DNA from: Trichuris trichiura
Lineage: Eukaryota > Nematoda > Enoplea > Trichinellida > Trichuridae
Length of the DNA: 64,000 bases
NCBI GenBank assembly: GCA_037903355.1
Contig: JBAJFE010000042.1
Span: 3,236,001-3,300,000 of the forward strand
Direction of reading: 5' to 3'
The notes under the pieces were generated by a model, which was not told where the DNA came from, did not search any database, and worked only from the letters and a program-made list of their open reading frames with translations. The position numbers were made by a program, and so were the translations under genes. Below, in pieces: positions 20,049 to 56,884 of the stretch (the first letter of the stretch is position 1; every line of letters begins with the position of its first letter).

Positions 20049-20213
20049 TAATACGTTTTCTCCAATGTAAATGAAGCTAAACATTCGAGTGAGACATAAT
20101 GATTTTTTTCCGCAGTTGTCCCCAACCGCTCATGAATCCCAAACTATTAAGTGCATTAATAATAAAAGGTAACAGCAGACACAACTGACAGCATAGTGTG
20201 TGTGGTTGTATTA

Positions 20214-20430
20214 CCGTTTATTACGGTCTATAAGAACACCCCTCTACCTAAGTTATGGGTTGTAATAATTGGCCCAGTTGGTACTTCCTAGGCTCGCATT
20301 CGACTTATTAGTCCTATGAGCTGAACAGCAATTCTTCTACCTCAATTAGACTGACTACGTGATTAACTGGGCCAATCATTACTACCCATTACTTAGGTAG
20401 AGGGGTGTTCTTATAGGCCGTAATATACGG
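20214..20430. mobile_element. pogo/Tigger palindromic MITE (217 bp)
   Basis: It is flanked by TA on both sides. The arms read CCGTTTATTACGGTCTATAA and, reversed, CCGTATATTACGGCCTATAA, then both continue GAACACCCCTCTACCTAAGT. The same terminal motif caps the large Tigger palindrome at 35726-40291, so this is probably a short derivative moved by that family's transposase. No coding capacity. Confidence 0.92.
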
Positions 20431-22554
20431 TATATGACTTTTCTGAAAACACAGAATTTATCTTTTATTTTCTGGCATTTGCGCTTGACAATCTCGAAGT
20501 AACAAGATACTCTGTTAAGTCACATGTGTTCATGGTTGCTTTTTAGTATTTGGTCAGTTCTGTCTTCTGCATTGAATGTATGAACATTTCGTTCATTCGG
20601 AAAAGTCATGAAACATTCTTCCTCATGATAGGGTTTCAGGAGTGCTGTAGTTTTGTTCCGCGACAATGTTCATAAATAAAACAAAAAAATTGCCTTTCCA
20701 AAGGATTGGTGTTATGCTGCTGGGAAAACGTATGGTGAATAAAGTAAGTTCAGGTTCCCAGTGCCGTAGAAAGACAACTAAGCAAGTACCATTGTGCATA
20801 TAACGTAAACATTTCAGGTGACAATGAATCAAATGAACCCTTCGCGCCTGAGCAAATTAGCACCGTTTCTGTCGGCGAGCACTCAGAACATCTTTGTTTC
20901 TCCAGCAGTATTGATTGAATGCGTATTTCTTCTGTGCACAAAAGAAAAGCCCGTTTCTATACGCTATATATGGAGAATCAGAATGGACAGTTGCTGTCTA
21001 GTTCTGACAAGCAGCATAGGATGAGCTCGACTGCTCCGCTTTTCTTTCTGTATTTTTGACAGAGAAGTTTATCGAAGGTAGCTGTCGCATTCCAGCAGTG
21101 GTTTCGTACAGCTGGTGCAGCTGCGGTTTTAAATACAGCATATTTCTTAACATGTTATGGGTTTTCACATCCGATCTCCATGTGTCCTTTGTCCATTTCC
21201 TCCACTAGTTGCTGATCTAGCTCTTCTCGTTTTCAGCAGCAACTGTTGTCAGTCCTTTTCTCTAAGGACGGGTAAAGTTAGCCGTCAAGAAAACGAAAAC
21301 GAGTCGCTCTGCTCTATTAGGTTTTTAAGAGCTGCTCGCCATCTCCTGGTAGAGCGTTTCTTTCGTTTAATCAGAGGGAAAGAGGCAAAAAGCTGCAAGA
21401 CGCTTGGAAATCAAAACGTAGCTTTAGTGTTTGTTTGTTGCTCATCTTTGCATAGTTATGTCACCACAGCTAATTGCTCAATAGCCTCCTGTGTCATTAA
21501 GCTTGTGGTGCCGCGTCACATCCCACAAAAAAACTTCAGTAGCGCATTTCAGCATACGGAATTGCTTACGTCAAAAATGATTCTTGAGGTGGTGAGTATT
21601 TTTACACTTTAACAGGCTTAGAAACGCTGTTTTTTGGGGAGAAAACGTTTTTGTGAGTGATCGATTTAGAACCGTGCCTTTTAAAGAGTATTAAAAGTTA
21701 AAGGGCGATTGGGAAAATGCTGGGCCGAGAACGGCCGCTTCCATATGGGGGCAGCGGACACGTCCAGGGTCAACTGTTCCATCCAGCCTCTCCTTTTTCC
21801 TGCCGTTTTTCCCTGGGTCAATGGGCTACGATGAGCTAATGGGTGAGTTCAATGCACTAAAGGGGGCCGTCGTTGCTGTCACTGAAAAACTTTGATTTAA
21901 ATATTAATAAAAGCTAAAGACAGAATGGTTTCCAACTGCCCTTCTTTGATAACATCCATGCCATTCATAATGCAACTATAAGAGTATCCGTGAAAACAGC
22001 AGGACCCAAAGAAGTACAATCCGTTCAGACAGGTACTGAGCTTCTAGCTGTAAAACAGGGTGATACCCAGTGTGTCCTTGAAAAGAAAAGGTTTAATTCG
22101 GTTGTTCCAAAACTTTCTGGTGCTACTGCCTCCTTTTGAGACGAATACTTTGTCATCGCTCCCACCCCCACCGCATCTCTCTGTCGAGCACTGCCCTGAT
22201 TTTAGTTGACGGTGAAGATAGGTCAAAGTGTGTGCCGATGCTCCGCAATTATCGGTTCTCTGATCTTTTTGCATATTGAATGAGTTGCCTTTCGTAATAA
22301 TCAAGTTATGAAGCGTGGCGGATTAGCACACGCTATTCCGTGTGCAGTGTGATGGCAGGGAGCTTAAAACGCGTGACATGAGCTTTTGACAAATGAGAAA
22401 AGAGATTACAATGGAAATTCGCGTCAGTAATCCTTTATTAGTCATAACATAACATGCCAACCTACTTTTCAACGTGAAAGATGCTTATGATGAAGCGAAA
22501 CTAACCTTTTACGTCTTGATTAATATTTGTGAGCACTATTCTTGGGTTTCCTTG
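20431..22554. other. mostly unassigned stretch
   Basis: An acceptor-like TTTCAG at 20817 is followed by an open frame beginning DNESNEPFAPEQISTVSVGE that closes after about 33 codons, and a 151-codon frame lies at 21157-21612. Neither is supported by a domain. No repeat ends were recognised. Confidence 0.35.
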
Positions 22555-27234: not shown

Positions 27235-27548
27235 TGTTGCCAGGAGAAATTTGATGAAGTGCGCTGGTTCAGGAATCTTGGCAACAAAGGATGTACGGCG
27301 CGCATACAGTGGCGCCGAGCGTCGACGAGTAGATACTGATTTTACTTAGCAATCAAATGAGCACGAGCGAAAGACAAAACCGATCGATCTCGACCAGAGC
27401 AAACGACCGAAAGAGAAAGAATGAGTGTCCACTCGGGCGATGCAGAGTGCTACCTCGCCAGAGGGCACGAATCAGTAAGTTGGCTACCTGCCAACCGGTC
27501 GGGAGCCCCCTGCGTGAGCGCGTCGTCGTCAGTGCCTAATTGGCAATA
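27235..27548 (-). repeat. BEL/Pao 3' LTR
   Basis: 314 bp, the same length as its partner at 35199-35512. It ends TTGGCAATA where the partner has TTGGCAACA. The end of the integrase frame runs a few codons into it. Confidence 0.95.
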
Positions 27549-29719
27549 TCGCCGGCCCTGTGGACTGAGGGGCTGTCCACGTCGTTATCTGCCGATTCCA
27601 GAAGGCACAATTTCGTCGCTGGCCGATGGATGGTTGTACCGTTCGCCTGCACCAGCGCTGAGCGAACGATGCCATCATCGCCCGGGAACACATGTATTAC
27701 TCGGCCAAGCGACCATTTTCCTCGGGGCATATCCGACTCAATCACGATGACTACGTCGTCATTTCGGAGGTTACTTCCCTGAGTGAACCATTTTCTGCGA
27801 CCCATTAGTGTCGGCAAATAGTCTTTAATCCAACGTTTCCAAAACTGGTTAGCTAAGAACTCTGAGTATCGCCAGCGTTTCTTCAGGTTTATACCTTCAG
27901 TAGAAATGACGTCCGGCGCCAGGTCGGGTACGGATCTTCCCATCAAAAGATGGTTCGGGGTTAGCGGCTGAGGGTCATCAGCCCCGGAAGACAGATAGGT
28001 TAATGGCCGTCCATTGACAATACACTCGACATGTACTAGCGCGGTCACAAGAATTTCGTCAGTCAGGGTGCGCCCTTGCAACCCCACGGTTAAAGCGCGT
28101 TTTACCGACTTTGTCAACGCATCCCAGGCTCCGCCCATGTGAGGTGCACTGGGTGGGATAAAGTTCCATGCAGCTCTCCTGACGGACAGATTTTCGGTGA
28201 TTTTCACTTGGTCAAGGCGCTGCAGGCATTTCAGTAGTTCTCGATTAGCGCCAACAAAATTCTTTCCATTATCGCTCCAGTAAGCGGCAGGGGTTCCACG
28301 ACGATGCTCAAAACGGAGCATAGCGGCAAGAAACGATTCAGTGTCCAGCGAGGACGTCATCTCCAAATGAATCGCTTGCGATGGGAGACAAGTAAACATG
28401 CACGCCCAACGTTTTATTCGTCTGCGGAAGAGGAGTACTTCGAATGGACCGAAATAATCCACGCCGCAGTTAGTGAAAACCGGAAGCCCTGGCGTTATGC
28501 GTGCTGTGGGCAGACCAGCCATGAAGGGGACGCCTGGTCGAGCAGACGCCCTTTTGCAAAATCCGCACCGACGAATGACGGCACGAATGACACGCCTTCC
28601 GTTGGGTAACCAAAAGCGCTTCCTCAATTCGTGCAGGGTCCGCTCATTTGAGGAGTGCGCAATCTTCCTATGGACCTCCAGGGCAATCAGTTCCGCAAGG
28701 CGATCTTTTGGTGGAATTATGATAGGATGCCGCGCATCCAGTGGAACACTGGCCTTTTTCAGCCTGCCGCCGACTCGCAGTAATCCCTTTTCGTCAACGA
28801 AAGGCGTTAGCGTAACCAAACGCGATCGTTTGCCTAGCTCTCGTTTCTCGAGCAAGGCAGATTTTTCTGACTCAAAGGCGCGGGTTTGTGCTAGCCGAAC
28901 GTGGAGGAAAAAGGCTTCACTGAGTTCGCTAACGGACAGCGGACCGATGAACCGGTGCCCATCTTTGAGCTTTCGAGCGTTGGAGATGAAACGCATTGCG
29001 TACGCCGTTACGCGAACCAGTCTTTCGAGCTGAGAGACTTTAGCGACCAGTTCGTCAACGCGGTTTGTCGTAACTTGGGCGGTGCCTATCCATGTTTCAT
29101 ACTTGATCTCTTCGTCATCTTTTGGCGAAACGTCTTCGTTCGCGAAACCAGGCTCGTTCGGCCAAGAGCTGCGGTCACGCCAGAGAAACTCAGGGCCGCG
29201 GAGGAACCGATGGTTTGGATGCAGCTCGGATGCGAACAGACCACGGCTGCAGTCGTCTGCTGGATTTTCAGTGTTGCGGACATAATGCCATTGTTCTGGG
29301 ACACTGGATTCAAGAATTTCCCCAATCCGGTTTCGGACATAAGTATGGAAACGGCAGGAGGTAGACCGGATCCACCGCAATACTGTGGTGGAGTCCACAT
29401 GAAACATGACCCTGTCGAAGTTCAACCCTAGGCAGTTCTTGATCATGTTCATCAACCGGGTGGCCATGACAGCAGCATTGAGCTCCATCCGCGGTATTGT
29501 AGTCGGCTTGATTGGCCCAACACGCGATTTAGCCATGACGAAACTAACGACGATGTCATTACCCACTTCTACCCGCAAATAGGCGACTGTGCCGTAGCCG
29601 GCTTCCGACGCATCGGCAAAAACGTGCAGCGCAGTCGAGAAGGCGGGAGCGTCGGTATTAGGCACCGAGAGACGATCACGGGAGAGGATTCGAGACAGCG
29701 TGCTAACCATGCGTTCCAT
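27536..29719 (-). CDS. pol: BEL/Pao RNase H and integrase region
   Basis: A 727-codon open frame. It opens in the RNase-H-like part (HVFADASEAGYGTVAYLR, then KSRVGPIKPTTIPRMELNAA and FHVDSTTVLRWI). Next is a zinc-binding HHCC-type region (HRKIAHSSNERTLHELRKRF followed by CGFCKR), then the integrase core with GVDYFGPF and YWSDNGKNF supplying the two Asp residues. The third catalytic residue would be Glu in the usual GG.WE motif, but here it reads GGAWDAL, that is Asp. The C-terminal part (LTPNHLLMGR to VIHVFPGDDG) is the DUF5641-type tail. Length and integrity are near complete. It must join the upstream RT frame by a frameshift near 29620-29640. Confidence 0.9.
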   Translation of the reverse strand: MERMVSTLSRILSRDRLSVPNTDAPAFSTALHVFADASEAGYGTVAYLRVEVGNDIVVSFVMAKSRVGPIKPTTIPRMELNAAVMATRLMNMIKNCLGLNFDRVMFHVDSTTVLRWIRSTSCRFHTYVRNRIGEILESSVPEQWHYVRNTENPADDCSRGLFASELHPNHRFLRGPEFLWRDRSSWPNEPGFANEDVSPKDDEEIKYETWIGTAQVTTNRVDELVAKVSQLERLVRVTAYAMRFISNARKLKDGHRFIGPLSVSELSEAFFLHVRLAQTRAFESEKSALLEKRELGKRSRLVTLTPFVDEKGLLRVGGRLKKASVPLDARHPIIIPPKDRLAELIALEVHRKIAHSSNERTLHELRKRFWLPNGRRVIRAVIRRCGFCKRASARPGVPFMAGLPTARITPGLPVFTNCGVDYFGPFEVLLFRRRIKRWACMFTCLPSQAIHLEMTSSLDTESFLAAMLRFEHRRGTPAAYWSDNGKNFVGANRELLKCLQRLDQVKITENLSVRRAAWNFIPPSAPHMGGAWDALTKSVKRALTVGLQGRTLTDEILVTALVHVECIVNGRPLTYLSSGADDPQPLTPNHLLMGRSVPDLAPDVISTEGINLKKRWRYSEFLANQFWKRWIKDYLPTLMGRRKWFTQGSNLRNDDVVIVIESDMPRGKWSLGRVIHVFPGDDGIVRSALVQANGTTIHRPATKLCLLESADNDVDSPSVHRAGDIAN

Positions 29720-30157: not shown

Positions 30158-32255
30158 GGGTCTCGTCCGAAATCAGCCCTCCGTCGGCAGTGGCGGCAAC
30201 ATCAAAGGAGGTCAAGTGGGGATTAGTGAGGCTTAATCGGCTTAGCACACTGAGCGGCTAAGCACGCGCAAATGGTCTGGCACACTAACGCTGATGAATT
30301 TATGCAGTGTACGCATGATTGCAGTAACGTTTCTGAAGAAAAGTATGACAACTTTACCGTACGGGTAGGTGAAAACTGTCTCAGTAACGCGCGCAGTACA
30401 CGCTAACGTACAGCAAGGGTACATACCGTCTAGTGTTGCGCCTTCACCGAGGAAAACGCTGAAGAAGCTGGGGACACTTCAGTCAGGCGTGTGCCCTGGC
30501 ACGGGCGGTGCGTTCACCGGGGGCTCTTGTTCGACCTGTGCATTCAGACGCGCATAGAGAACAGAAACGTTAAAGAAGCAATTTACCATCCGCTTTGGCA
30601 AGGCCGCTTGCGCTGGCGTCGCGTCCGCTCAGGGCGGGTGCAACATGCGGATGTCGGCGAGGATGGCCTCGAAAGCATCGGAGGGTCCCAAACGTTTTCT
30701 CCACATGAACTCGCTCAGTACGACAAGACGACGCTCCGATGCGTTCCGCACCGCCGCTTGTTGCCGCGCTTCAACTGGGCCCACATGGACTCTACGGTCT
30801 GCGTGTGGGCGCCCGTGTCTCGGTCGACGAAGTTCGCTGAGTGATTCACTCGCGAATGGTCGTACCCTTCACGGCCGAGACGGCGGTAGGCACGCCACTC
30901 ATCAGTCATCACTGCAGACTGCGGCCTCACATGAGACCGTACAACGGGTAGGAGGGTGTTCGCCGAACGGTCCTTCACGGGTTCGACGTGAACTTCGCCG
31001 TTTTCCCGACATACACCGCCGAAGAGCCACAGCGGCGAGTACATCTTCCCTCGGTTGTACTTTCTCCGGGAAAAGAGGGACTCGTCCAGTTCCACCGTCA
31101 TACCTGGTCCTCTCAGTTGCACCGGTCTTTTGGCCAACGCGTCTGCAGTAACTTGCCGCAGGTGACCGTTCCACAGCACTCCGGTGCCGTGGCTGAGTCC
31201 TAAAGCACACATACTGCCTACAACAACAACAGAAGGCATGCGAATCCGCACCCAGCTCGTGTAAACAGAATTTGGTCGTGGTGTACTCACGACTCCAGTT
31301 GAAAATGATCTCGACGGCCTTCTGCGGCTTTACCTTGTTCCGTGGGACTACAATGGACACACTGCAGTGCATAGCGCTCGTAACGGCTTCAGCGCATAGT
31401 GCCCTTACCGTCGAACCACGTCCCTGTTCGTACAGCCACTTCCTTCCTGCAGGAACGTTTAAAACACCTCCAGGCCATGCCACCGCGTGTCAGACGCATC
31501 GCCTCTCCGCAAACGGGGCACAGCCTTTCGCTGTGCAGCAGCCCTTTTTCGCGAAGGAAATTAGCCGCCGTTTCTTCATCCCGCACCGTTTGGTGCAGCC
31601 AGGCGGTGTTTGTTCGGTTGCTTTTCCGGTCAGGTTCACTTCGACTTGCGCAAGGTGTGTTCATACTTTGCAATGAGGTTCGCACATTTTGCCACGACAC
31701 AGTGCCAGCCGGAGCGTTGACCTTCATTGTTTTCGATGAATAACTAACGGAACCCTGGGATACATCTCTGCAGTCACATTGTACTCCCTGTGCCAGCAAT
31801 GCATGTGCAGCGGTTTAATCCTTCACCTTCACTGTTTCGCAAGGGTCAGTAACCGAATCGGTGACACTTGCAACCATTACTCAATTGCACAGCTACACAA
31901 TTCATGCACAGGTAATTCGCGGGTCAATAACACCCTCTCTGCGTGTGCCGCTGCCGCTCCATTGTGTTACCCAATCTAGGAATGCGCGCGCAGCTGTTTC
32001 ATCCCTCACCAGCACTATTTCGCAAGGGTAAGCAGCTGCATAAGTGACATGGATACGCAATCCGCAGGTCAGTGACCGGTTAAACAGCAGGTAGCACTAA
32101 CCGTCCTTTGTCTCTTCGTTCAACTTGCGCGGCACGTGTTCTTCAACCCACAGTATACCGTCACACCCGTTGCGCGGCTTATCCGCATTATCGCAGCGTA
32201 TTACCGTGTGAAGTTGCCGCTTCTGCCGACGGAGGGCTGATTTCGGACGAGATCC
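30158..32255 (-). mobile_element. Merlin element inserted in BEL/Pao RT (2,098 bp)
   Basis: The inverted ends are GGGTCTCGTCCGAAATCAGC and, reversed, GGATCTCGTCCGAAATCAGC, with similarity over about 43 bp. They are flanked by a perfect 8-bp duplication GACTACTT (30150-30157 and 32256-32263). Without the element and one duplication copy the BEL/Pao frame reads MSQVVNHFYVDNW. It carries its own broken transposase on the minus strand. It is more complete than the copy in the 12-17 kb composite. Confidence 0.95.
30620..31660 (-). pseudogene. Merlin (IS1595/ISXO2-like) transposase
   Basis: The N-terminal zinc ribbon is RLCPVCGEAMRLTRGGMAWR with CFKRSCRKE (31389-31660). After a frameshift comes AVEIIFNWSREYTTTKFCLH. 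After another, HLRQVTADALA leads into the catalytic domain: VELDESLFSRRKYNRGK (first Asp), VMTDEWRAYRRL (second Asp) and VNHSANFVDRDTGAHTQTVE followed by SMWAQLKR (Glu). All three acidic residues are present. A stop just after RSVVLSY and the frameshifts interrupt the protein. The family performs cut-and-paste DNA transposition. Confidence 0.9.
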
Positions 32256-32263
32256 GACTACTT

Positions 32264-34094
32264 GACTCATAACTAAGTCAGCATGCTCACCCGAATCTAT
32301 GGCCGCCTTCCGCAACGTATATGCGCAAATGGTCAGCGAGCATGTAGCGCCAAAGATCTGGACCGTCATTTGGTAGTCACAAAGCGGTTGAGAGGATCCT
32401 GGCTCTTTCCACACAAAACGTAGAGCCGATCTGTCAGGTGGTTGCACCATTACTTGATGGAACATCTTAACGATGTCACTACTAACCGCGACAGGATACA
32501 AACGAAACCTAAGGAGGACTGAGGTCATGTTCGCGGTCAGATCAGGTCCTTTCAATAACGCTGAGTTAAGTGACACTCCCTTGAACTTTGCGGCTGCATC
32601 AAAAACTATCCGTAGTTTTGATGGCTTATTTGGACTGATCACGGGATGATGCGGCAACCACCACGTGCGGCCTAACGGTCCTGCATTAACTTCATCGGGC
32701 GATAACTTCCGCGGGTGACCTGCTGCTATATACTCTTGCATTGCAGCAACATACTTCGCACAAAACTCTGCGTCGGAATTGAGACGACGTTCCAGCGATG
32801 CGAACCTCCTCACGGCTGCAACGCGGTTAACAGGCAGCCCTGGCTGGTCGCGTGCCCAAAGAAGCCCTGATTGATACCGCTGACCGTTGAAGCGTGTCGT
32901 TTCTTTAAGAATCCGCCAAGCTCGTTTTTCCTCCAAGCTGATGGGCTTATCGTGATTAGCGGGGGGACACATGAGTTCACAAGAGAAGAACCTATCCAAA
33001 AGTTGGTCGGTCGCTGGCGATTCCCAAGCGTCGTTTGTTGCCAAACGATAACAGTGCGGTTCTTTCGGCAGTCCCTGTCCATACGGTAACGGCCCAACAA
33101 CTGTCCAGCCGAAAGGCGTTAGTATTGCGCGAAGACTCCGCTGATTGCGTCGGTCTGATTTTGAGTCGAGTATGGCGTGTGCGGCCGGGTAGTCCATTCC
33201 GATTAGCAAAGTAACGTCTGTCGTCCCACTTGTATCGACAGTGATAGAACGGAGAAACGAGTAGTGCCGCATCGCGGTTCCTGTACCCTCAATCTGGTTC
33301 GGCAGCTGTAATTTCGGGACAGCATATGCATCTTCTATGTCCTCGGTGTAGAGACCATCCGTCGATTTAATTCGGAATGATACTCGACGGAAGCTTAGTG
33401 CTCGCTGCTGGTCGTGGAACGTAGTGAAGCGGCATGACTCCCGTGCTCCCTTCAACCTGAGGGCAATTGCCACGTCCATGTGGATCATGCTAACTTCGCT
33501 CCCACTATCGAGAAGAGCACGCGTACGATAGCACCGCCCGTCGGGCGCGACGAGCATTAGCGGGACGATTGGCAGCAAGCAATGGATCGTCTTCTCGTCA
33601 CAGACAGCACCCGTAAAGGGCTCGTTCTGCTCGCCGCGCGTGGTTTCTGACGGCTCCTTCATGTGAAACAAACGTGGCGCGCCGTGTAGCATAGGGTGGT
33701 GTGCTGCTCGGCAGCCGGTTTCTGAGCAACGACTGCGACTGTTGCAACGTTTAGCTGTGTGTCCCGGTTGTAGACAGCGGTAACAGCAACCCTTGATTCT
33801 GACTACTTCAGCACGTCTGTCCATTTGCATGCGGATAAACGTAGGGCAGGAGGGGAGCAAATGGGCTCCACCGCACAAAGGACAGGCAATAGCGCTGGTG
33901 TCTGGCAATGTGGCTGAGGCCACTATTCGAGGTCTTCTTTTTTTATCGTGCAAGGTACGCTGAAGGCCACGAGGCGGGTCGTCTGACTCGTCGGTGATTA
34001 CGTCAGCTGCTTCCCGTCTTTCGCTAACCAGTCGGACAAATACTGGAGACTTGGGAACCTGGGCCTGATGCTTCTTGTGACGAATTGACCCCAT
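32264..34094 (-). pseudogene. pol: BEL/Pao zinc knuckles, protease and RT 5' part
   Basis: A continuous frame from 34094. Cys/His-rich knuckles come first (CPLCGGAHLLPSC, CCYRCLQPGHTAKRC, CSETGCRAAHHPM), then a retropepsin-like aspartic protease with RALLDSGSEVSMIHMD. The BEL/Pao reverse transcriptase follows, with GRTWWLPHHPVISP, KLRIVFDAAAKFKGVSLNSA and AVSSDIVKMFHQVMVQPPDR. It ends at MSQVV, where the Merlin begins; the remaining residues up to 32097 are Merlin-encoded read-through. The link to gag upstream requires a frameshift at about 34090. Confidence 0.92.
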
Positions 34095-35512: not shown

Positions 35513-36059
35513 CCAGTCTTTCGTTCCTTGAGTATCGACTGCACCCAGCGTTCTATTAAAACCATTTTGCTTTTGTGTTACCTACCCCAGCCGCGCGCTC
35601 ACGCGCACCGTTGTCCTTCAAAGGCCGTATCAGCATTAAGAAAACAAGGACGGAGGATAATAAGATGTAATAGAATAAGACTTGAAAACGATTGACCTTT
35701 TAACGTTGTTTCCGAATTTTAGCCACCGTATACTATGGCGTATAAGAATACCCGCTACCTACGTAATGGGTGATGATTAGCCCAGTTACAGTGAGGCTGA
35801 TTGCTCAATTCTAAGGCAATTCTGATTAGTCAGTTTCCTGTCAATGCTAATCGTCCGTTCAATTGAAACTGTCGTGCCTCAACTTCAGCGAAAAAATTCA
35901 TCAGCTGCCCATTAGCGCGTGCTGTACAGCACTACATAGGCTATAAGAAGCGAACTGTACTGAATATGTTTATTCGACGCATATTACAACTGCTGCACGT
36001 AAAACACAGGTGAATAGATTGTAGAAATGGATAAATATGGTGCATGAAGAGAAGAACGT

Positions 36060-37402
36060 TAATAGCAGAAGAGACAAATCAGTAAAGCTAGGCATAGTCT
36101 TCGTCGTTGTCTTCCAGTCCATCGTCTTCTGTATCGTTCAACGGGGTTGAGATAGAGCACCTTCAAAAAAGCTTCATAACAGTTTCTGTCTTCACCTTGT
36201 TCCATGCCGTTATTGTGAGGAAATTGAGCGATGGGGCTCACATTCGTCCGCCGGCTGTGTAGCTCTTCTGCCTATTCACATTCCTTTCTTTCCACTCTTC
36301 TCGCATGTAGTCTTTAAAGGGTTTATTAACGCAGACGTCCAGCGGCTGAGGAACTAATGTAAGCCCACCAGGAATTACGGCTGCTTCTATTTTATATTTC
36401 TTTAAATGTGATTTTATTGCTTCAGCTACGTGACTTCAGAATGAGTCCCACACCAGTAAGCTTCTGTTGTTACCATGCTCAGGCCTTTTTCTCCAGATGT
36501 TGTCAATCCTCAATTTCACACCCTGTTCGTCCATGCAGCCGTTCTCATGAAAGTGGACAAAGGCGCCAGAAGGAAAATCCTCCTTTGGCGTCCTTTTCCT
36601 CTTAAATGTGACCATGGGCTTCAACTTCATTCCATTAGCCAGTCAGGACAACACCACCGTGAAATGAGTTCTTTCATGTCCAGTGCTCTTCACTAGAATA
36701 GACCTCGTGCCTTTACTGTCTACTGTTCTATTGCCAATCATATCGAAAAATATTGGCGTTTCATCCATATTACCGATGTTGCCCAATAAAAACTCATTTT
36801 TCCTTCTCAGATTACTGACATGCCTGGAAATACAATTTCATGAGATAGAGTACAGTTTCATTTCTTCTACAAAATACAGCTTCGACTTTTGCTTATTTCG
36901 GGATGGCACGCTACGCCTCTTCAAAAAAGAGACGTGTAAACTTACCGCCGGAAGTCACGCAGCTTATCCTCCAAATCCACAGGCATTTTCTGCGCAGTTT
37001 TCGTCCTCCGTCTCAGGACGAGGTCCTTCTTTTTCATGAAACGGCTGCACCATCCATGCGTTGCAGTAAAGCCGTACGATAAGTGTGAATTGCAGCGCGC
37101 CCAGTTCATCGCTTTATCTTGCATGTCTGTTCCTGTGACGATACGGCCGCTCTGTCGCTGTTCTCAGACCCATTCTGCCAAACCGTTCTCCAGTTCCGGC
37201 CGCGAGGCGGTGCCTGAGAGCGTCTTGCGCGTTGTTTCATTGGCATCTTCTTCAGAGCCTCTTCCTGTTTTCTCCAATCTATCACCATCTTCCGGGTAAC
37301 GCCATCATTTCTGGCCGCCTGTGCATTGTTGCTTTCTTTTGCCATCTTGACGACTTCCAACTTGAATCCGGCTGTACGGCTTTTCCTTTTCATCGCTCGC
37401 AT
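36060..37402 (-). pseudogene. Tigger transposase, left arm copy
   Basis: It opens near 37393 with MKRKSRTAGFKLEVVKMAKE, a brinker-type helix-turn-helix, then loses frame near 37220 and resumes as MQDKAMNWARCNSHLSYGFT (the CENP-B-like second DNA-binding region). After an intron-like gap the DDE part contains LKPMVTFKRKRTPKEDFPSG, HENGCMDEQGVKLRIDN and LLVWDSF followed by TGA. The catalytic block in this arm is open where the right arm is frameshifted. The C-terminal end is broken near 36240. Confidence 0.85.
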
Positions 37403-38617
37403 GCAGAATGCAATAAGTAAAATTGAAAAATTCTTTCGTTAAAGAGACTTATTCTTCCTTAGTCACATGGTTTTTTCAGTTGCTACTGAGAGAGCGATAC
37501 AAAGCGACACGCGATACGCCGGAACAAAGTTAGACGAAACTGATTGAAACAAGTGTGTTCAAACTGTCCCAGTACGTCACTGAGACTGACGAATCAAAGA
37601 AGCACAGTGGTCCGGAGAAACAACTTCATCCCACTTCAAATGCCAGCACCTACGTAGCACTGCCTTCTTCGTTTCACAAACACGAAGCGAATGGAGACGC
37701 AAACTGTTCAACATTTCGGCGAAAGAACGACACACTCCATCCTCACTGGTTATTATTAGCTAACATGTCACGCTACTCTTGTCTGTCTGATGCAGCAAAG
37801 GATGGGAAATCACAGCTCCTTGTAGTTTAATGATAACACGGCGTGACCTCTATCGATGATACCTGTAAGCTCAATCGATGACGGCTTCACGCTCAGTCGG
37901 TGGGTGCTCCTGCAGCTGCAGGTATGCGCAATGGCTCTTGAAGTTTTATGATAACGTTGCGTGACCTCTATGCAGGATGACTAAAAGCTCGGTTCTCAGC
38001 GGGCGCACAGTTCTCTTGGATTCAGCTAACAGTTATCATCGATATAGGTCACGCAACGTTATCATCAAGCTTCAACAGCCATTGCGCAAACTTACAAGTG
38101 AAGGAGCACCCACCGACTGAGCGTGAAGCCGTGATCGATTGAGCTTACAGATATCATCGATAGAGGTCACGCCGTGTTATCATTAAACTTCAAGGAGCTG
38201 TGATTTCCCATCCTTTGCTGCATCAGACAGACAAGAGTAGCGTGACATGTTAGCTAATAATAATCAGTGAGGATGCAGTGTGTCGTTCTTTCGCCGAACT
38301 GTTGAACAGTTTGCGTCTCCATTCGCTTTGTGTTTGTGAAAAATTAGGCAGTGCTACCTGGGTGCTGGCACTTTGAAGTGGGATGAAGTTGCTTCTCCGG
38401 ACGACTGTGCTTCTTTGATTCGTCAGTCTCAGTGACGTACTGGGACAGTTTGAACACACTTGTTTTAATCAGTTTCGTCTAAATTTGTCTCCGCGTATCG
38501 CGCGTCGCTTTGTATCACTCTCTCAGTAGCAACTGAAAAACCATGTGACTAAGGAAGAATAAGTTTCCTTAACGAAAGAATTTTTCAGTTTTACTTCTTG
38601 CATTCTGAACGCGAGCA

Positions 38618-39929
38618 ATGAAAAGGAAAAGCTATACAGCCGCATTCAAGTTGGAAGTCGTCAAGGTGGCAAAAGAAAGCAACAATGCACAGGCGGCCAG
38701 GAAGTATGGCGTTGCCCGGAAGATGGTGATAGATTGGAGGAAACAGGAAGAGGCTCTGAAGAAGATGCCAAAGAAACAACGCGCAAGACGGTCAGGCACC
38801 GCCTCGTGGCCGGAACTGGAGAACGCTTTGGCAGAATGGGTCCGAGAACAGCGACAGAGCGGCCATATCGTCACAGGAACAGACATGCAAGATAAAGCGA
38901 TGAACTGGGCGCGCTACAATCCACACTTATCATACGGCTTTACTGCAACGCATGGATGGTGCAGCCGTTTTATGAAAAGGAAGGACCTCGTCCTGAGACG
39001 GAGGACGAAAACTGCGCAGAAAATGCCTGTGGATTTGGAGGATAAGCTGCGTGACTTCCGGCGGTAAGTTTACACGTCTCTTTTTTGAAGAGGCGTAGCG
39101 TGCCATCCCGAAATAAGCAAAAGTCGAAGCTGTATTTTGTAGAAGAAATGAAACTGTACTCTATCTCATGAAATTGTATTTCCAGGCATGTCAGTAATCT
39201 GAGAAGGAAAAATGAGTTTTTATTGGGCAACATCGGTAATATGGATGAAACGCCAATATTTTTCGATATGATTGGCAATAGAACAGTAGACAGTAAAGGC
39301 ACGAGGTCTATTCTGGTGAAGAGCACTGGACATGAAAGAACTCATTTCACGGTGGTGTTGTCCTGACTGGCTAATGGAATGAAGTTGAAGCCCATGGTCA
39401 CATTTAGAGGAAAAGGACGCCAAAGGAGGATTTTCCTTCTGGCGCCTTTGTCCACTTTCATGAGAACGGCTGCATGGACGAACAGGGTGTGAAATTGAGG
39501 ATTGACAACATCTGGAGAAAAAGGCCTGGGCATGGTAACAACAGAAGCTTACTGGTGTGGGACTCATTCTGAAGTCACGTAGCTGAAGCAATAAAATCAC
39601 ATTTAAAGAAATATAAAATAGAAGCAGCCGTAATTCCTGGTGGGCTTACATTAGTTCCTCAGCCGCTGGACGTCGGCGTTAATAAACCCTTTAAAGACTA
39701 CATTCGAGAAGAGTGGAAAGAATGGATGGCGAACGGACCGAAAACGTACACTGCCAGCGGACGAATGCGAGCACCATCGCTCACTTTGCTGTGCCAGTTC
39801 GTAATAAAGACATGGAGCAAAGTGAAGACGGAAACCGTCGTGAAGTCTTTCCGAAAGTGCTCCATCTCCACCCCGTTGGACGACACAGAAGACGATGGAC
39901 TGCCAGACAGTGACGAAGACTATTCTTAG
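38618..39929 (+). pseudogene. Tigger transposase, right arm copy, two exons
   Basis: Exon 1 (38618-39063) is fully open: a brinker-type helix-turn-helix (YTAAFKLEVVKVAKESNNAQ) and a CENP-B-type DNA-binding region (MNWARYNPHLSYGFTATHGW). An intron is predicted at 39064-39185 with donor GTAAGT and acceptor TTTCCAG. Exon 2 begins HVSNLRRKNEFLLGNIGNMD and then ETPIFFDM, with the first catalytic Asp in NMDET. It loses frame near 39405 by a one-base deletion relative to the left arm, carries the shared TGA after WDSF, and resumes with PLDVGVNKPFKDYIREEWKE. It ends in an acidic tail PDSDEDYS with stop at 39927-39929. Confidence 0.88.
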
Positions 39930-40291
39930 CTTAACCCCTTTGTCACTGGAATTAATGTTTTCCGTGTCATGTACCATGTTTGTCCTCTTCTACAATCTAT
40001 TCATTCGTGTTTTACATGCAACAGTTGTAGTAGAAGTCGAATAAACCTATTCAACACAATTCATTCCTCGTAGCCTACGCAATGCTGTACAACACGCGCT
40101 GATCGGCAGCTGATGAATTTTTGAGTTGAAGTTGAGGCAAGACAGTTTCAATTGAATGTCTGATTAGCATTCACGGAAAACGGACCAATCAGATGTGATC
40201 TAGACTTGAGCAATGAGCGTCTTCGTTGCAGGGCCAATCATTACCACCCTTCGCTAACGCAGGGGAAGTTCTTATACGCGGTAATATACGG

Positions 40292-40689
40292 TAAATAGAA
40301 TTGTGGAACAAAAACTTGGTATTTTTCAGTCGTGTAAATCTACAATCTGTTCTCATGTAACGCAATGATCGGCTGCTAACTCAATTTATTTTCGAGCCAA
40401 CAGAGCCGGCTGGCAATTACGAATATGGAAAAATAAGTTCATAGGAACTATTTCCCTGTCGCTACGCGGTACTGCGTCCACACCATTTAAGAAACTAGTT
40501 TCTGCTGGTCAGTCGTTTTCCTTGATCAAACGGATTTCACTGCCCTCATTAAGCTATTCAAAGCTTGCGGAGACTGACATCGCACTGTAGGCGCCCGGAA
40601 CATGCGTGTAAACTTGCATTACCTGCTTTTCTATTGCCTGCTGTAAATCTCTTCCATTAATCAAAATTTTTCCGTGATCCGAACTACCC
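40292..40689. other. unassigned stretch
   Basis: No recognised gene. Part near 40490-40540 weakly resembles a segment inside the Tigger MITE at 19316-20048. Confidence 0.35.
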
Positions 40690-53080: not shown

Positions 53081-53659
53081 TCAGAAGGGTTGTCGGGTCG
53101 CCTTACCGCTTCGGCAGTCCTCACAGTTCGAGAGTGCTGTTACGCTGCAATGTAGGCCTCTTGCAGCTTGGCTTCTCACCATTTGAATGATGCGCTTTTT
53201 GCTAACGTGCCTCATCCGTTGATGCCATCGATCGACGCTTAGTTTCCTACAGTCAGCAGTCTCTGTGCGTTTTGTTGAGTACTTCTGCATTGTTTTTGCA
53301 ACGTACAGACGTCCTTGCCGCTGTGCCTCAACCAGCAAGTTGCCATGTTCGTCACGGATGCGACAACCTCGTCTGTCAAAGACGATTCTTCGATTGTTGT
53401 CAACCATTTGTCTTACCGATAAAACTCCCTGTGGGATCCCAGGCATGAGCACACTGTTGTGGGCAACGAATTCATTCAACATCCCTTTGTTATGAAGCAG
53501 TTTTACCGCAACTGTGCCTCTTCCGGCTGCTAACGTTGTCGATCCATCAGCAGTGAAAGCTCGCATGTTCGCAGTGTCAGTCTTGTCCAGCGCGGCGAAG
53601 TATCGTTCGTCAAGGCACATGTGATGCGTTGCTCTAGAATCGATAATCCAACCGCTCAA
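53081..53659 (-). pseudogene. pol: copia protease and pre-integrase region
   Basis: It opens GWIIDSRATHHM, which is the aspartic protease site (normally DSGAT.HM) with the active-site Gly changed to Arg. It continues through VLSVRQMVDNNRRIVFDRRG and then the zinc-binding pre-integrase block SVDRWHQRMRHVSKKRIIQM with CEDCRSGKATRQPF. It is contiguous in one frame of 192 codons. Confidence 0.9.
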
Positions 53660-54470: not shown

Positions 54471-54784
54471 ACGTTTCGGAACTGCTCGTGTTCCGTCGTC
54501 CGTCGAATGCTCCTAGCGATATTCGAAGCCGTTGACGCCATAAATTCTTTATTTGGCACTGAAGGCGTTCTTTTCGTATTACTGGACTTAAGCCGGCTAA
54601 CTGCAGATCAGGGAGCATTCAGAGTACAAGCGCGGCATTGGGTTTCCTCTTCCTTAATTTTTCGGGCTGTTAGCAATGGTAGCGCAAATTGTAAGTGAGG
54701 CTGCGATGTTGTTCTCAGTGCTGCGCAACAATAAATCTAAATTCAATATTTCCTCGGAGCAAGACGACAGCCGCTTGATCTTAC
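54471..54784. other. unassigned stretch
   Basis: No feature recognised between the foldback arm and the hAT gene. Confidence 0.4.
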
Positions 54785-56884
54785 CTCACTTTGTGCGACG
54801 GTTGGGTCTGGTGCAATGCTAATAATTTATCCACGTCCGGCTCGATAGTCGTCAGGAGTAATCTCAAGTCGCCTCGCCTGACTATCTGTAAGCGGTTTCT
54901 TTTTTTCTGAGAAGGTCCGTTACCGCACTAAATCCGCGTTCAACCAAATAGGACGACGGAAAAGGGATGAGGAACTTCTTAGCTACGTTCCATAGCCTGG
55001 GATACAGCTGTCTGATTTCCTGCTGCAGCCAGAAACTGGTATAGCCGCCCTTCATCTTGGGCTTCAGCTCCTCGTTGGCTTGCATCTCAATGACCTCTTC
55101 CTGGTAAGCCACTTCAACCTCGGCGAGGCATGTAAACGGGTCCAAAACCCAGTCCGGTATCGTCATGGACAAAATATCTCTGTACCTTTCGCACATGTCC
55201 TCATGGAGCATGCTGAGATGGTCACAGAAGGAGCGTATGACATCGTCAGGGAGGCCGCCATTCTTCTTGAGGTCGTCAAGGTTAGGGAACTGGCGGAACT
55301 CTCCGCGCCCCAGGTTTTAACGGAAAATGGAAAGCTTGTCGATGAAAGCCTTTACAACCGTCTTGGTCTTGATAAGATTCAGTTGATCTCCTTGCAACTG
55401 CAAATTCATCTCGTTAAACTTTAAGTAGAGGTCCGACATGTAAGCTATGTCAGCTCTCGATTTCTCCACGTTGTCGCGTAATTCCGTATCCTCAGTTTTG
55501 AGAAACTGTAAGACGGTGTCAAAAAGGGCATAGAAGCGGCTCAAGCAGGCGCCTCTTGAAAGCCAGCGTACTTCTGTGTGAAGCAGGAGGCGGTTAAAAT
55601 CTTCGTCATTTTCTTCGCATAGTTGGCTGAACAATCTCTCTCTCAAGGCACTGCTTTTGATTTTATTAACCGCAGTGATCACGTACTGCAGCGAACGGTG
55701 CAGTCTGTTACTGAGCCGCTTCGCCACCAGATGTTTCCGGTGAATTACGCAGTGCACGGCCAGCAAATCCGGTACCTTTCCTTTTAGATACGAAAGAAAC
55801 CCGCGATGGTGTCCAAGCATTGACGGGGCTCCATCCGTCGCGACAGCGATTACGTTCGTTAGTGGTATCTCCTTCTCTTTAAAAAAGTTTTCTACAGTAC
55901 GAAATATTGATTCTCCTCTAGTGACAGTCAGCAGTTCTCTTGCGAAGAGTAACTCCTGAACTAACTTGCCTTCCTTGATGAACCTAACATAGGCCAGCAG
56001 CAGCGCTTCGTTATGTGGCAACGTCGAACCATCCACCTGTAAAGAAAATTCCTCTGTTCTCAAGAGGTTGCAGAGCGTATTCTCCACATCAGCGCTCATT
56101 TCATCAATACGTCGCTGCACCGTATTGTTGCTTAAGGGAATCTTTTTAATTATTTCAGTTGCAGGAATGCGCAACACAGTACGCAGCACTTCCGAAACAG
56201 CCGGCAGTATCAGTTCTTCTCCGATGGTATGCGGCTTTCCAGATTTCGCGATTAAGAGGGAGATGTTATAGGACGCGCGCAATCCGTCGGTGTTTCGTCT
56301 TGATGCGGATGAAAAACTCCCTGGCAATTTAGGTCGCTTTTGGAAGTTATCTTGAAGGGATTGGAAGTAAGAAAGGTGTGACGAAAAGCGCGACGGGAAT
56401 TACGGAAACCGCCCCCTGCACGACTGGCGGTGAAAGCGACGATCCCTGCAGGGCAGACCTTGATAGTGATTCACGCAGGGTAGTCACCGGAAATAGCTAT
56501 CAGGACGCGCGGGCGGTCACCGGAAACGTGCGTCAGACTTCACCTCGCCCACGAAGTGACGCTTAGCCCCCGCCAGGATAAGGAGTATATAAAGAGCACC
56601 CGCGGAAGGCTGATAGATTGGTGTTGTGTCAGTACAATAAAGTGTTTGACGACCCTTTTTGCGTGCGTCTGTCAACCGCGTTTACTACAAAAGGTCTTTA
56701 TTGGCCTTGTCACCGTGCATCGTTTTCAGGTGTTTTACTAATTTTGGGGGCTTCATCAGTTCATTCGCAAAAGCCTTTTCACAGATCAAGCAAAATGGTT
56801 GCTGCGAATTCGAGGGTGACGGTATAAAACCGTATCTTAGATATTCGACGTTGTATTGCCTACATTTCTTTTTGGTTCTACCAT
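54785..56884 (-). pseudogene. ZBED/SCAND3-type hAT transposase with a solo LTR in it
   Basis: The start is at the minus-strand ATG at 56884 (MVEPKRN), with a frameshift soon after. A BED-type zinc finger follows (CLICEKAFANELMKPPKLVK, HLKTMHG), split just after it by the solo LTR at 56377-56689. A long open frame (55317-56327) has IGEELILPAVSEVLR, IIKKIPLSNNTVQRRIDEMS, FSLQVDGSTL, VIAVATDGAPSMLGHHRGF (core motif), AVHCVIHRKHLVAKRLSNRL and TEVRWLSRG. After a frameshift at about 55310 comes MLHEDMCERYRDILSMTIPD, and finally the dimerisation motif FPSSYLVERGFSAVTDLLRK with another frameshift at 54895. It is the best-preserved hAT transposase in the window but is not intact. Confidence 0.92.
56377..56689 (+). 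mobile_element. solo LTR (313 bp) inside hAT gene
   Basis: It starts TGTGACG and ends TTTACTACA. It is flanked by a perfect 5-bp duplication AAAGG (56372-56376 and 56690-56694). It carries a TATA-like TATATAAAGAG followed by an AATAAA-type polyadenylation signal (ACAATAAAG near 56636). Removing it with one duplication copy restores a continuous hAT frame between the BED finger and the core. The size resembles the BEL/Pao LTRs (314 bp) but the sequence is different; the superfamily is open. Confidence 0.93.

Follow-up and report, generated by a model that had tools for sequence, protein, structure and literature searches.

Does the near-palindrome of about 4.6 kb in a stretch of Trichuris trichiura DNA (assembly GCA_037903355.1, contig JBAJFE010000042.1, positions 3,236,001 to 3,300,000; 64,000 nucleotides (nt), hereafter the window) record two transposons that landed face to face, or one element that carries a gene in each of its arms? 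We consider it likely, with good confidence, that the window element (35725–40292) is a decayed copy of an autonomous Passer-type pogo transposon whose terminal inverted repeats (TIRs) have grown over the whole gene. This would give a 4.6-kb palindrome with two divergent genes and working outer ends, the arms of which are homogenised, probably by conversion.

An inverted repeat was found over 35769–40245 of the window as seven long blocks of 145–615 nt that are 78–98% complementary. The arms, ~2.27 kb each, differ at 9% of sites: the left or A arm, running outward from the centre on the minus strand (35725–37989), was delimited by the inverted repeat and a tip scan, and the right or B arm (38024–40292, plus strand) by the inverted repeat and genome matches. 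After the innermost block they are separated by an asymmetric gap of 34 nt (37990–38023), hereafter the core. Each arm contains a two-exon transposase gene reading outward from the centre. In the right arm, exon 1 (38618–39063, plus strand; BrkDBD and HTH_Tnp_Tc5) is open and followed by a GT donor, and exon 2 (39186–39929, plus strand; DDE_1 region) is broken; the mirror copy in the left arm (36087–37393, minus strand; approximate limits, placed by eye with the right arm as a guide) has three stops in exon 1. Scanning the whole window for the tip motif at up to five mismatches placed it at the two outer ends of the element (left tip 35725–35749, plus strand, three mismatches; right tip 40268–40292, minus strand, none) and at the ends, 20213 and 20431, of a miniature inverted-repeat transposable element (MITE) outside it, and nowhere at the palindrome centre. 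The TA dinucleotide adjoins the right tip and has been lost from the left. An earlier note on this DNA had described two facing, transposase-bearing arms with the terminal motif on the outside only, and this description holds; the spacer of ~60 bp that it gave shrinks to 34 nt, and both genes proved to be broken. It had also foreseen a hairpin transcript, which is not expected from the element's own genes because both diverge from the centre; only read-through from outside would produce a transcript crossing both arms.

The inner arms also contain a ~55-nt unit, present twice at a spacing of 118 nt on the left (37819–37990, minus strand; family D2) and, as the same unit at the same spacing, on the right (38019–38193, plus strand; family D1). 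By eye, the number of these units varies among related elements and is mostly equal in the two arms of one element; in L017 and L025 the unit is present in one arm and absent from the other.

To which family the transposase belongs was read from L009, a related palindrome at C24:1306569–1311136 in which both arms encode the same open 396-amino-acid protein; outside the ~70 nt nearest the centre, its arms differ at a single site. The protein contains BrkDBD, HTH_Tnp_Tc5 and DDE_1 domains, with no CENP-B_N match at E 0.001, and a triad of D169, D275 and D311, picked by motif and not by structure, with 35 residues between the last two (DD35D). In the excerpts of PMC7386202 used here, Passer is marked by BrkDBD plus HTH_Tnp_Tc5 (or HTH_Tnp_Tc5 alone) with DDE_1 and DD35D, and Tigger by the DNA-binding pair CENP-B_N and HTH_Tnp_Tc5; Fot and Fot-like elements have DD35D as well, but without BrkDBD. 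By its domains and DD35D triad, the transposase is thus assigned to the Passer type of pogo. Tigger, the label first given to the element, is not supported, given BrkDBD in place of CENP-B_N and the DD35D triad. Named protein matches within Trichuris were led by T. trichiura (79%), followed by T. suis (77%) and T. muris (68%); other named matches were vertebrate, at ~50–56%.

Whether the window element is one of a kind was addressed by searching the host genome (72.7 Mb) with the right arm, which gave at least 81 matches with 40 of 206 candidates scored. Among 38 regions fetched from these matches, 25, as well as the window, had arm matches of at least 100 nt in both orientations, a recurrence that excludes chance. 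The same core was found in either orientation in all 21 aligned centres; a 14-nt core motif fits each of them with 0–3 mismatches in one orientation and 5–6 in the other. Querying with 131 nt of the centre yielded at least 40 centres in the genome (40 of 56 candidates scored), of which, by position, 13 lie in fetched palindromes, 22 in 2.5-kb derivatives described below and 5 elsewhere. No inner tip was found in the scanned palindromes at up to five mismatches. With a shared core and 40 centres, the palindrome most likely arose once and then spread, as far as comparison of the copies can tell. The idea that palindromic copies elsewhere would share the central junction is therefore borne out, as is the view that the element is not a pair of independent insertions.

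Two single-armed insertions landing head to head, here and at other loci, could have made the founder once, with the inner ends lost later. As an account of the family as a whole they are ruled out by the shared core, found in every aligned centre and in the 40 centres located by search, and by the empty sites of two copies (below), and for the locus itself we hold them to be very improbable. Hardly credible is an assembly artefact. Palindromes are hard to assemble, the arms of L009 are almost identical, and misplaced reads in polishing could blur or mimic exchange between copies; but the arms of 19 elements differ by 0.7–19%, so that an assembly slip does not explain the family, the structure occurs on many contigs and the compared flanks are mostly unrelated (exceptions being L009/L010 and L031–L034). 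These 19 palindromes, the window element included, have both arms usable and form the arm comparison set. Some of them are incomplete: an insertion splits L029/L030, one arm of L020 is missing its outer end and L025 has an extra stretch.

Two further variants were kept out of the arm statistics. L026 (C9:5404000–5409900) is larger: only the inner ~1237 nt of each arm belong to this family, and farther out the palindrome continues in a different sequence, whose two sides mirror each other at 98.9% over 1035 nt up to the fetched edge; one 382-nt stretch of L026 matches window positions 54506–54886 at 88%. L031–L034 (one on C13, two on C16 and one on C34) all have the palindrome in a single rearranged form that is no longer symmetric, and their flanks are partly related.

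If the palindrome is one unit, sites without it should join its flanks directly. We searched the genome with the joined flanks of eight copies, scoring 40 of 94 candidates. The joined flanks of L014 gave at least 20 junction-spanning matches at 86–91% and three more at 75–80%, and those of L009 one at 90%; for the other six copies, no junction-spanning match was among the candidates scored. By their position, the L014 and L009 matches appear to be paralogous empty sites, and since such sites are spanned for two copies, the whole 4.6 kb would have been inserted as one piece. Such empty sites lie at C61:20725–20947 and C46:61403–61612. Together with the recurrent shared centre, this agrees with the earlier proposal that the inverted-duplication element could act as a single unit. 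TA stands beside both tips in nine of nine copies, a set that had been selected for TA. The pattern search had a clean control, with 183 and 184 matches against 1 and 0 for the reversed pattern.

Single-armed relatives exist as well. Among 12 one-sided copies (L035–L046), the tip scan found one tip in ten, two in L036 (1.66 kb apart, the second with four mismatches) and none in L041, and no intact single-gene element was present among them. Further one-sided protein matches lie outside this set, for example on C41, C7, C16 and C19, and a single-gene ancestor may yet exist. Other DDE_1 genes of the pogo-superfamily type, with open frames of ~530–600 codons, are numerous (150 of 751 candidates scored). 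Eight such loci taken from the 150 matches (L047–L054, 3.5 kb each) contained no inverted repeat longer than 161 nt, and the palindromic structure is therefore not seen there.

Has the gene been maintained in this form? The ratio of non-synonymous to synonymous substitution rates (dN/dS) for exon 2 was 0.17–0.20 when L009 was compared with five arms from the other subfamily, and that for the whole gene was 0.23 between L009 and L012. Given these low values, the transposase was probably under selection while the palindromic subfamilies diverged, as judged from open arms.

The arms of one element, in turn, evolve together. Across the 19 palindromes, A–B identity within an element averaged.923 against.844 under random pairing, and none of 20000 permutations reached the observed value (L028 was left out of this and of the lesion comparison, and L035 has no second arm). 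In a tree of 40 arms, built without L024, L026, L031–L034, L028_B and all one-sided fragments except L035, 12 of the 19 elements had their two arms as sisters with strong support. Within 75 columns of the core, comparisons between elements gave identities of.83 for A–A,.85 for B–B and.75 for A–B; beyond 200 columns the three were equal within.003. Side identity is thus kept near the core across elements and erased from 200 columns outward. Of 18 own pairs, 5 had over-long runs of identity, as did 20 of the 760 pairings of other kinds, in a test that assumes evenly spread differences, so that its p-values are approximate (mean between-element identity is 76–88% along the arm); L009, whose own pair has too few differences, was left out. 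Such tracts are patchy within single elements: L013 has 796 identical nt amid 163 differences, and the window element 335 nt amid 215. Ten of the 17 gap events found in exactly two arms joined the two arms of one element, and shared lesions numbered 1.89 per own pair against 0.16 between elements. Homogenisation is blind and more than a mending of the gene; the notion that the palindrome serves merely as a repair backup was rejected, broken code also being common to both arms.

Exchange appears to reach across elements as well. L017 and L025 share 2061 nt across the centre at 99.5%, with outer ends at ~80–88% and unmatched flanks. The right flanks of L009 and L010 (C24:1311137 on; C51:156932 on) are identical over 962 nt and 99.25% alike over the 4 kb that follow. 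One arm of L010 nevertheless agrees with L013 in its inner ~1.5 kb, without a difference over 1484 nt. The left flanks of L009 and L010 do not match from the palindrome end outward; the shared stretch is either a duplication or a pair of alleles, and it breaks off at the element.

How the arms are kept alike admits one serious rival. Arms could be made identical at each jump or replication by hairpin fold-back copying and then diverge independently, without lasting conversion. In its favour, the arms of L009 and L012 are near-identical, and A–B identity is fairly even along the arm in several copies (for example L011, L015, L016 and L021). The patchy tracts within single elements, such as those of L013 and the window element, count against it, as does L010, with the flank of L009 and an arm matching L013. 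We regard fold-back copying as unlikely on its own; it is nonetheless the main rival, and it may act beside conversion.

Several observations pull against the reading we prefer, some of them towards fold-back copying. Seven of the 19 elements (L009, L010, L013, L014, L017, L025 and L030) lack strong support for pairing their arms as sisters, and no significant run was seen in 13 of 18 own pairs. The more decayed the tips, the more A and B diverge (rho 0.55, p 0.02, n = 17 of 19), a correlation equally expected if each jump made the arms identical. Some lesions occur in both arms of a single element and nowhere else (seven in L019, five in L023, three each in L021 and L027), and they belong here too; they also speak against fold-back copying, although a dead copy moved in trans could produce the same pattern. 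dN/dS is weaker evidence in exon 1 (0.31–0.66) and for exon 2 within the second subfamily (~0.28–0.57), in comparisons that took open arms only. TA may be part of the tip, the empty sites are known by position only, mobility is read from sequence comparison and the window copy itself is dead. On balance we favour gene conversion as the means of homogenisation: the arms of one element evolve together, their tracts are conversion-like and they are probably homogenised by it.

Smaller relatives of the palindrome bear on the same choice. In a neighbour of L009, ~1016 nt are missing from the arm, and with them most of the transposase gene. Querying with this deletion junction gave at least 39 full-length matches among 40 (40 of 338 candidates scored), of which 34 form 17 pairs of ~2.53 or 2.65 kb; two more make up one 4.1-kb pair, and three have no listed partner. 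The family core lies at the middle of 17 of 17 deletion pairs, and the same deletion is therefore present in both arms of a non-autonomous derivative that multiplied as a unit. In a folded hairpin, a single event would remove the same segment from both arms, a point for fold-back copying. One could go further and suppose that each jump or replication passes through the folded form, where one arm serves as template for its partner. The two genes would then start out identical and any arm deletion would be mirrored, giving rise to palindromic non-autonomous families. We find this doubtful, and we know of no such transposition-linked mode of homogenisation for cut-and-paste elements.

The MITE of 217 bp (20213–20431) behaves differently. 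It has ~64 nt of tip in common with the arm of the large element, at 77–81%, and 39 other copies at 94–97% (40 of 185 candidates scored). Compared with their own reverse complements, its copies are 73–77% identical (40 copies scored). The copies thus point to a MITE that moves as a unit without arm homogenisation, and because its arms are unlike while its copies are alike, the concerted pattern is not universal among palindromic elements here. The earlier note had suggested that the MITE arose by the same inverted duplication. This is not supported, given the short shared tip and the contrast between arms and copies; descent of the MITE from the large element is not shown, and the derivatives of the large element appear better explained by a deletion carried in both arms.

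Under gene conversion between arms, the history would run as follows. A break in the 5′ region would have led, through fold-back inverted duplication, to the founder, whose TIRs would have taken in the whole transposase gene. Either gene could then provide transposase acting on the outer tips at TA targets, and the whole palindrome would transpose as a unit by those tips. Later arm-to-arm gene conversion would keep the arms alike, with exchange between elements being rarer. The repeats have engulfed the gene and the form has multiplied, and most differences between the open genes of the two subfamilies are silent. With palindromes of varied age scattered by the dozen through one small genome, arm-to-arm conversion, inter-element exchange and deletion matching become measurable, and the family suggests a route from an autonomous element to palindromic non-autonomous families.

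Elsewhere in the window, on the minus strand, lie a piece of a Bel-Pao-type retrotransposon (27536–29719; Peptidase_A17, Integrase_H2C2 and DUF5641) and, adjoining it, an open reading frame (ORF) of 665 amino acids without a Pfam match (32097–34094), as well as a retrotransposon Pol fragment (53081–53659; Pol_BBD and gag_pre-integrs). A search with a Pao retrotransposon ORF brought up nothing close among named sequences, its best named Trichuris match standing at 50%.

Several known systems share parts of this design. In the palindromes of the human Y chromosome, arm-to-arm gene conversion keeps arms alike while lineages diverge; those palindromes are not mobile. Among transposons, in the excerpted text of PMC7386202 and PMC9976928, Passer copies have two TIRs and an intact transposase, and three tabulated elements measure 1.8–2.9 kb with inverted repeats of 24–28 bp. 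The domain set (BrkDBD, HTH_Tnp_Tc5 and DDE_1), DD35D, TA beside the tips and a transposase of ~400 amino acids are common to both; the usual Passer has one gene between short repeats, whereas here the inverted repeat is a whole arm and there are two genes (PMC7386202, PMC9976928). One gene between short repeats is an architectural habit of Passer, not a definition of the family. Among open-licence papers, taken by title and the start of the abstract, we found no palindromic element with two transposases; the phrase 'two transposase genes' is present once in PMC5105172.

Foldback-type elements come closest in shape, with very long TIRs that account for most of their length. The foldback-like Galileo of Drosophila, a member of the P superfamily, has long repeats extended by inverted recruitment of inner sequence, and chimeric copies with exchanged centres, as far as the excerpts of PMC3573991 describe it. 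Its transposase, however, lies between the repeats and not within each of them; the repeats reach at most ~1.26 kb, and a transposase ORF is always absent from those copies whose repeats are longest, in contrast to the open gene inside each repeat here (PMC3573991). The foldback elements Tetris and Tm1, the latter from a nematode, likewise have long inverted repeats, and of three complete Tetris elements, two have repeats that cluster with each other, which was taken as possible homogenisation. Complete Tetris copies are without conserved ORFs, Tm1-A combines one Mutator-like (Phantom) transposase with foldback-like repeats and neither is described, in the excerpted text, as a two-transposase palindrome (PMC4079207, PMC3169594). 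Foldback elements with long repeats are thus already known; what appears to be new in the T. trichiura palindromes is a transposase gene inside each repeat.

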